Origin: Lachnospiraceae bacterium 28-4
Lineage (GTDB): Bacteria > Bacillota > Clostridia > Lachnospirales > Lachnospiraceae
DNA: 64,000 nucleotides
Direction: 5' to 3'
Assembly (NCBI GenBank): GCA_000403275.2
Contig: KE159600.1
Span: 641,708-705,707, forward strand
Part shown: piece after piece, positions 11,193 through 37,558 of the stretch
Numbering within the stretch: position 1 is the first letter of the stretch
How the letters are laid out: every line of letters starts with the position of its first letter
Notes under the pieces: model-generated
Told to the model about the DNA's origin: nothing
What the model saw: only the letters and a program-made list of their open reading frames with translations
Database searches by the model: none
Program-made: the position numbers and the translations under genes

Positions 11193-11259
11193 CTATAGCG
11201 ATAAAACATATTCTACAAGATTATAAAAATAATATCAACCATATTAATATGTAAAACAC

Positions 11260-11603
11260 GGAAATCAATTTTAGAGGTCGGGGCAGGGAGAGGGCAGAGG
11301 AGGCGGGACGGGACAGGGAGTGCATGGGTTTCCGTGCCAGCTTCGGGAAATGGATTTTCTAAATATTCCGGCAAAATAGCTGCAGAAGGACGCAACCGCC
11401 CGCGATTCGCCATCCAGGCTCATTGCGGGCTTTTGGTGACATCCATGTCACCAAATTGCTGTTTGCTGAACGGAATATTAAGAAAATCTTATTTCCCTGC
11501 GCAAAGCAGCGGAAACCCATGCACTCCCTGTCCCGTCCCGCCTCCTCTGCCCTTTCCCATGCTGTCTGCCCTCTCCCTGCCCCGACCTCCAAAATTGATT
11601 TCC
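11260..11603 (-). repeat. Structured palindromic element A (long-arm hairpin with conserved core)
   Basis: 344 bp. Outer arms 11260-11334 and 11511-11603 are near-perfect complements, with a 19-base insertion in the right arm and one mismatch. Arms are strongly purine-biased with many GGG runs. The core (about 11341-11495) is closed by a second 17-bp stem (11354-11370 with 11471-11487). Inside are a stem TTTGGTGACAT / ATGTCACCAAA and a GCCCGC / GCGGGC stem. The core is nearly identical, in inverted orientation, to element B, but the outer arms are not. Read on the minus strand, the single arm mismatch is a G-U pair. Likely structured RNA or a hairpin repeat; not coding. Confidence 0.85.
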
Positions 11604-11642
11604 ATGTATGTAAAATATACAAATAAAATTATAAGTTTAAGA

Positions 11643-11967
11643 GCGTGTCCGTTTGGGAAAGAGCAAGGGCAGGCCAAGGAAAGGCCGGGGGAAGGAGTGC
11701 CGGGGGATATTTTCTCGCTGCTTCACGAAGGAAAATGAGATTTTCTTAATATTCCGTTCAAAAAGCAGCAATTTGGTGACATGGATGTCACCAAAAGCCC
11801 GCAATGAGCCTGGATGGCGAATCGCGGGCGGTTGCGTCCCCCTGCAGCCACTTTGCCGGAATATTTAGAAAATCCATTTTCCGAAGTCAGCACGAGAAAA
11901 TATCCCCCGGCACTCCTTCCCCCGGCCTTTCCTTGGTCTGCCCTTGTTCTTTCCCAAACGGACACGC
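11643..11967 (+). repeat. Structured palindromic element B (inverted partner of element A)
   Basis: 325 bp. Outer arms (about 11643-11716 and 11894-11967) are complementary except for two positions, both G facing T (G-U if the plus strand is RNA). The core repeats that of element A in opposite orientation: closing stem 11740-11756 with 11857-11873, hairpin 11772-11795, stem 11797-11802 with 11824-11829 and a nested GCC/GGC hairpin. The arms are unrelated to those of A apart from a shared GGAGTGC. A 39-bp AT-rich spacer separates A and B. Together with A it fills most of the 937-bp gene-free gap 11072-12008. Confidence 0.85.
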
Positions 11968-37359: not shown

Positions 37360-37432
37360 TCTATACCCTCCATTCTCTCTTTTTGTCTATAATATTACGC
37401 ATTTTTTCTTTTAATGTCAATTTAATTGCATA

Positions 37433-37474
37433 GAAATCAATTTTGACGGTCTTTGGCATGGCAAAATTGATTTC
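37433..37474. repeat. Short hairpin element C sharing its arm with element A
   Basis: GAAATCAATTTTG (37433-37445) and CAAAATTGATTTC (37462-37474) are perfectly complementary around a 16-base loop. The arm matches the outermost ends of element A (GGAAATCAATTTT), including the next C/G. It lies between the divergent flotillin and nitroreductase genes. Confidence 0.7.
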
Positions 37475-37558
37475 CGTGATTTAATTAGAATATATATTGA
37501 CAATTTCCAAAAAATAATAGTAAATAAAAATAAAAACATCAATCAGGAGACTATGCTT

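Follow-up and report, generated by a model that had tools for sequence, protein, structure and literature searches.

TwoAYGGAY elements in a Lachnospiraceae genome are probably mobile DNA hairpins with arms re-copied from one another

Bacterial MITEs are short, non-autonomous elements that occur in many copies between genes, carry inverted terminal repeats and are flanked by a target duplication of constant length. A sequence family of another kind, TwoAYGGAY (RF01731), has been catalogued since 2010 as an RNA whose function is unknown. Weinberg et al. (2010, PMC2864571) tabulated it as a probable RNA without a cis-regulatory role; Rfam gives it the type Cis-reg and places it in clan CL00106. 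Its conserved AYGGAY loops match CsrA sites, and binding of CsrA by the two loops has been proposed (PMC4333381). In the literature consulted on the motif, we found no paper that describes TwoAYGGAY as mobile. Two further lines of work concern palindromes. Template switching has been credited with the ability both to generate RNA hairpins and to preserve them (PMC8794818), and the Ripley model of quasipalindrome correction is cited in a study of Nematomorpha, whose mitochondrial genes contain perfect palindromes; the authors propose that these are actively converted and may be parasitic (PMC6649704). Finally, an insertion sequence has been reported to land preferentially in a repeated palindrome, REP (PMC1525189).

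We examined a window of 64,000 nucleotides from Lachnospiraceae bacterium 28-4. A cmscan of the whole window returned exactly two Rfam matches over cut-off, both to TwoAYGGAY (120.8 and 120.2 bits; cut-off 43), and these are the cores of two neighbouring elements, termed A and B, that sit between divergent genes. Both cores match the full model, and the cmscan alignment places two AYGGAY-loop hairpins in each. By sequence membership A and B can be assigned to RF01731, with any action as RNA being putative. An initial annotation of this DNA had suspected an undescribed structured RNA family, and in this respect it has to be revised, the core being that of a described one. Its account of the architecture holds: it reported near-identical cores in opposite orientation, each closed by a 17-bp stem, and a repeat search of the window found an inverted pair of 179 nt (11333-11511 versus 11716-11894; 91% complementary) that constitutes the common core, with an inner stem of 18 nt (94%).

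Element A lies on the reverse strand and, as defined by its transposon ends (CACGGAAATCAATTTT / AAAATTGATTTCCATG), is a unit of 350 bp at positions 11257-11606, with the core (120.2 bits) at 11338-11504. In core orientation its 5' arm is the longer one (11505-11606) and its 3' arm the shorter (11257-11337); arm alignment gives lengths of 102 and 82 nt. The shorter arm lacks 19 nt that lie between two TCTGCCC repeats in the longer one, and this gap is an uncorrected deletion or slip in one arm. Element B, on the forward strand, has its 5' arm at 11643-11722, its core (120.8 bits) at 11723-11889 and its 3' arm at 11890-11967, the arms being 78-79 nt long and spanning 11643-11967 together with the core. 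Repeat search and arm alignment show that the outer arms of both elements are self-complementary. As originally noted, the arms of A are unrelated to those of B apart from a shared GGAGTGC: the identity of their R arms is 0.50, within the range of random pairs between the window's own genome (G000) and a same-genus genome used for comparison (G004), for which the median is 0.41 and the range 0.23-0.60.

At least 62 RF01731 matches over cut-off are present in G000 (4.28 Mb, 7 contigs), a lower bound that comes from scoring the best 150 of 166 candidates. Further copies exist beyond the 62, some around the pattern of the ends described below and one beside the listed copy C3:179914-, and six additional G000 cores are split by an insertion sequence, one of the six being seen by one half only. 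Matches were found in 14 of 41 related genomes, own genome included; G004 alone has 53, of which 51 are used here, the partial matches on C81 and C91 being left out. In a family search of 299 genomes, one per genus, 45 had matches (43 over cut-off), and in a phylum search 51 of 398 genomes did (34 over cut-off), per-genome counts being minimum values in both. For comparison, 22 other genomes supplied 37 copies, 6 of them from the same genus and 31 from 18 further genera, a non-random set chosen mostly as high scorers or neighbouring pairs. Carriage of the core by phages or plasmids found no support, with zero matches in both a phage collection and a plasmid collection.

We consider it probable that A and B are non-autonomous transposon-like (MITE-type) elements whose arms are re-copied from each other at the DNA level. 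Mobility is the first part of this reading. Element ends read CAC-GGAAATCNATTTT, with the consensus CA-C/G-GGAAATC-A/C-ATTTT, and the pattern CACGGAAATCNATTTT (at most two mismatches) matches the genome 67+56 times, compared with 2+1 for a reversed control. Both ends, with at most one mismatch each, were present in only 39 of the 113 copies. Of these 39 copies, 15 carry a direct duplication of 9 bp, set exactly 3 nt outward of GGAAATC, that agrees at seven or more of nine positions; the other 24 fall below that level, and at each of 29 control offsets 0-1 of 39 copies reach it. Element A carries the duplication TATGTAAAA on both sides (11248-11256 and 11607-11615 on the forward strand; 9/9), and for element B the pattern gives no end of the GGAAATC type. 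At the orthologous site in G004, with flanks 90% and 86% identical, 17 bp stand in place of the window's 740, so both A and B are absent there; four more G000 loci look empty in G004, one of them with apparent remnants of two ends. The window also contains a core-less relative of 50 bp (37429-37478, no strand assigned), in which two ends (CATAGAAATCAATTTTG ... CAAAATTGATTTCCGTG) enclose 16 nt, and the sequence itself reads as flanked by an 8/9 duplication (37420-37428 ATTTAATTG; 37479-37487 ATTTAATTA); the ends thus seem to define the moving unit. The suggestion of a hairpin-type mobile repeat, for which the initial annotation had proposed looking for target-site duplications, is supported by both the empty site and the 9-bp duplications.

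With terminal inverted repeats, a constant 9-bp duplication at one offset and empty sites, these short, multicopy, intergenic elements resemble MITEs. They differ in that conservation is confined to about 16 bp at the outer ends, with the remainder of the arms specific to each copy yet self-complementary, and in that the ends listed in the one genome scanned yielded no partner element combining matching ends with a transposase. Twenty stretches between such ends were examined there, none of which held a transposase gene of the element's own, and the sole transposase among them belonged to an IS4-family insertion sequence (IS) inserted in a core. Three candidates for an autonomous partner were rejected: C1:190021-191929 (1.9 kb) is really a TwoAYGGAY core split by that IS, which has other ends; C2:311791-313358 (L304) matches by chance, its right end falling within a putative pyrB ORF; and L312 spans ordinary-looking ORFs. 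Mobilisation in trans by an unseen transposase is what we infer, and the 9-bp duplications presumably argue for a DDE enzyme rather than for the REP-type tyrosine transposase associated with REP/BIME palindromes.

Several observations touch on the make-up of individual copies. The IS4-family IS (PF01609, NF033592) has eight copies in G000, seven of them full-length with identical protein, and in six of the eight (L317, L322, L324, L325, L326 and L327; one by one side only) the insertion point is the first AYGGAY hairpin of a TwoAYGGAY core; the other two are L320 and L323. These insertions in cores are accompanied by 10-bp duplications such as CCATCCATGG, and the AYGGAY loop looks like a preferred landing site of this IS. 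The situation is like that of REP as an insertion target (PMC1525189), with another palindrome and another IS. One further locus, L313:241-624 (G000 C1:1396341-1396723), has perfect ends and long arms around a centre that is strongly diverged, T-poor and faintly TwoAYGGAY-like, and around 600-650 of L254 the core centre is missing between stem halves like CTATTTCATTAGTGAAATC, with arms partly matched by eye. The base of the core stem in A and B (11346-11358 GGAAATGGATTTT and 11868-11880 GAAAATCCATTTT) resembles the ends, with one mismatch each to GGAAATCNATTTT; by chance the window would contain 2.3 matches this good, and the likeness is perhaps accidental or perhaps the mark of a nested origin.

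Complementary arms are a general property of the copies. Arms of at least 40 nt flank the core in 60 of 62 G000 copies and in 44 of the 51 G004 copies used, with a median of 94 nt in both, a maximum of about 150 nt and a pooled pairing identity of 0.95. As a control, the left arm of one copy was combined with the right arm of another, and 11 of 120 such combinations reached 40 nt; as 60 of the 62 own-genome copies do so, the pairing goes beyond chance. Arms are shorter in the 37 other-genome copies, with a median of 37 nt; 18 of these copies attain 40 nt, and pairing identity is 0.85. The near-perfect pairing within copies goes together with variable sequence between them: arms could be aligned in just 221 of 5,356 copy pairs, 216 of which are within one genome. 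In composition, the interior of the 3' arm is 74% pyrimidine (flanks, 47%) and 68% G+C.

Pairing of this kind could reflect selection on an RNA stem, the core being a functional structured RNA, perhaps a CsrA-binding sponge or a 5' UTR element. The Rfam type and the CsrA-like loops fit such a reading, and the loops are conserved across 21 aligned cores from several genera. Furthermore, csrA is present in 28 of the 41 genomes searched, own genome included: CsrA was found in 11 of the 14 motif-bearing genomes (the other three being 97, 83 and 65% complete), and also in 17 of 27 motif-free genomes. The arms of A and B point the same way, as the four mismatches counted by arm alignment, two per element, are all G.U in core orientation; the initial annotation had remarked on three of three. 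Since G.U is tolerated on the RNA strand and A.C is not, and each becomes the other on the opposite strand, counting the two tests for a strand. Over many copies the signal is gone: in 106 of the 113 copies, those whose arms measure 25 nt or more, the 9,130 paired columns left after trimming 6 inner and 3 outer ones contain 181 G.U, 181 A.C and 82 other mismatches. Relative to the transcribed strand, 27 tandem copies from a cruder gene call gave 53 versus 48 (p 0.69), and 35 of the 37 other-genome copies gave 49 G.U and 40 A.C (p 0.40). Arm mismatches are therefore without strand bias, although those of A and B happen to be uniform.

The cores were examined in the same manner. ViennaRNA folds of 148 cores, short or duplicate ones having been dropped, contained G.U at 261 of 8440 pairs on the modelled strand versus 366 of 8577 on the other, and the mean MFE of -69.2 versus -68.5 favoured the modelled strand slightly (p 0.006), which would fit an RNA. 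A model (R1) from 21 cores had just 27 base pairs, and the strand tests were made without it. As a control, 30 T-box matches with assigned loci in the own and related genomes were folded like the cores and proved strongly strand-biased, with G.U at 362 of 2110 pairs in sense versus 128 of 1809 in antisense and an MFE of -65.8 versus -49.8, the sense strand being lower in 29 of 30. An RNA like a T-box leader would have been picked up by the test, and the cores show no bias towards the sense strand as strong as that of the T-box RNAs.

Nor do the copies show a preferred orientation to genes. Of the 62 listed copies 59 could be classified, 18 as tandem sense, 19 as tandem antisense, 19 as divergent and 3 as convergent, and none of the 59 lies inside a called gene. 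In an earlier, coarser gene call on less flanking sequence, 43 copies had genes called on both sides, and of these 27 were tandem, 15 divergent and 1 convergent. The scarcity of convergent sites was not significant compared with 22 gaps of at least 100 bp in the window (p 0.61). The divergent setting of A and B had prompted the idea of a cis-regulatory 5' UTR element, which fails on the near-equal tandem classes. These results, together with the transversions described next, which are impossible via a G.U intermediate, weaken an RNA role of the core, and we regard RNA selection as a distinctly unlikely reason for the pairing of the arms. The initial annotation had held that arms changing without compensating pairs would speak against a structure under selection; the arms do change with compensation, and it is the RNA-type strand bias that is absent.

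How the arms change was read from 23 disjoint copy pairs, whose alignments take in just those columns where the R arms are locally alike. Concerted changes, in which both arms of a copy differ from the other copy in a complementary way, numbered 213 (131 transitions and 82 transversions) versus 108 single changes (90 and 18), and gap columns were concerted in 32 cases versus 26 single. In the pair C2:470641- / C2:240761- all 11 changes are concerted, and six are transversions. Mismatches between arms are clustered, with 48 close neighbours versus 25.9 on permutation (maximum 38 in 500), and when pooled they become more frequent outward, affecting 2.4% of the core-side part of the arms and 7.6% of the outer part; counted by copy, the outer half was worse in 17, the inner in 8 and the two tied in 14, which is not significant (sign test p 0.11). 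The concerted changes support template-switch correction of a palindrome, which the initial annotation had considered and which is the route of arm-to-arm copying that we infer. In this the elements resemble described quasipalindrome template switching, where arms become or stay complements by copying and multibase compensatory changes result (PMC8794818; PMC6649704); they differ in that the process is deduced here for a natural high-copy element with arms of ~100 nt whose identity has been lost between two species. The palindromes of Nematomorpha (PMC6649704) are likewise long and nearly perfect inverted repeats, but lie in coding genes of animal mitochondria and, in the account consulted, are not described as transposed units with target duplications.

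The same hairpin might be kept by selection acting on it as DNA, for instance as the single-stranded or cruciform substrate of transposition or of a host protein, so that selection and not a mutational bias pairs the arms. This is a serious rival to a purely mutational cause, if a doubtful one. Pairing without strand bias, conserved hairpin loops and the presence of long arms beside the core in nearly all G000 copies would all fit it, and the pyrimidine richness of the 3' arm is unexplained by copying or drift alone. On the other hand, the clustering and polarity of mismatches and the concerted gap columns fit copying better than stepwise compensation, and copies in other genomes manage with much shorter arms.

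Near-perfect arms could alternatively mark young copies, in which one arm was copied from the other at transposition and never corrected later. If so, arm mismatch should accompany decay of the target duplication; it hardly climbs, from 3.8% at 8-9/9 (14 copies) through 4.3% at 6-7/9 (9 copies) to 5.2% at 5/9 or less (16 copies), with a rank correlation of 0.10 (p 0.55), although a decayed duplication may also stem from recombination or misplaced ends instead of age. Sites occupied in both genomes bear on the same question, since under this alternative they would be repeated insertions at hot spots. At ten such G000/G004 sites the aligned flanks are 80-94% identical, and the arms are internally 0.76-1.00 identical, while R-arm identity between the two genomes is 0.31-0.60 (11 comparisons), against 0.23-0.60 with the median of 0.41 for random pairs. 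Arm identity has thus been lost at shared sites with pairing intact. At five of the ten sites the similar flanks stop no more than 30 bp short of the arm ends, left and right alike, and at eight no more than 80 bp short; at the other two a second G000 copy lies on one side. One of the ten elements is inverted in place. At C3:179914- / G004 C8:18904- the cores are reciprocal best matches (0.877) and the R arms are 0.55 identical, each copy's arms being self-matched at 0.94-1.00; beside the G000 copy stands a second, head-to-head one, outside the list of 62, which G004 lacks there. Close flanks and a reciprocal-best core with drifted arms speak against repeated insertions.

In favour of young copies, cores at shared sites are mostly nearer to other copies of the same genome than to the ortholog (overall, 86 of 111 nearest neighbours are from the same genome), and C2:229286+ / G004 C36:81937- is a shared site with different core subfamilies. 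We nevertheless consider the absence of later correction unlikely. Same-genome likeness of cores and differing subfamilies at one site indicate that replacement or conversion between copies also happens, so that on the sequences compared replacement by another copy is possible at shared sites, besides drift in place.

Adjacent copies such as A and B give a related picture. Among the copies used, neighbouring pairs within 700 bp are head to head in 11 of 12 cases (8 of 8 in G000 and G004, 3 of 4 elsewhere); the pairs come from G000, G004, G023, G239, G068 and G197, and those in the other genomes were partly chosen as pairs. In four of the five listed G000 pairs, A/B included, the cores are mutually closest out of 61 and the arms unrelated (0.42-0.50). 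Inverted neighbours seem either to homogenise their cores or to arise by inverted duplication, while their arms drift separately.

Taken together, we propose that the element would be a unit of about 300-450 bp, with the conserved TwoAYGGAY double hairpin at its centre and long arms between centre and ends. A transposase acting in trans would presumably recognise the ends and insert the unit with 9-bp duplications. Once inserted, the long hairpin may invite a polymerase to copy one arm from the other by quasipalindrome template switching, perhaps beginning on the core side, and mutations, slips and deletions in one arm would be either lost or copied to the partner. Arm sequence would then be free and pairing would not, and with complementarity restored again and again, each copy would drift to an arm sequence of its own yet stay a hairpin.

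What is new is the reading of a known sequence family, RF01731, as a mobile DNA hairpin with self-correcting arms. The copies described here share with the family as listed the full-model match and the two AYGGAY hairpins, and differ from its description as an RNA in being high-copy, with transposon ends, 9-bp duplications, an empty site, long arms and no clear strand signature of an RNA. Whether the reading extends to all of RF01731, so that across many genera of the phylum its members would be mobile DNA hairpins whose covariation comes from arm-to-arm copying in replication and not from RNA selection, stands at even chances in our view. Should TwoAYGGAY prove to be mobile hairpin DNA, labelling it a cis-regulatory RNA would be misleading, and the idea of a CsrA sponge needs testing against this possibility. 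The count of G.U versus A.C by strand, with a T-box control, is applicable to other repeat-like Rfam families. The elements offer a natural case, present in many copies, of complementary changes, transversions among them, that come about with no hint of selection on RNA, so that covariation taken by itself might lead to a false call of an RNA. If the reading is true, the compensation that normally counts as proof that an RNA stem is functional would be mass-produced by a mutational process in a selfish element.
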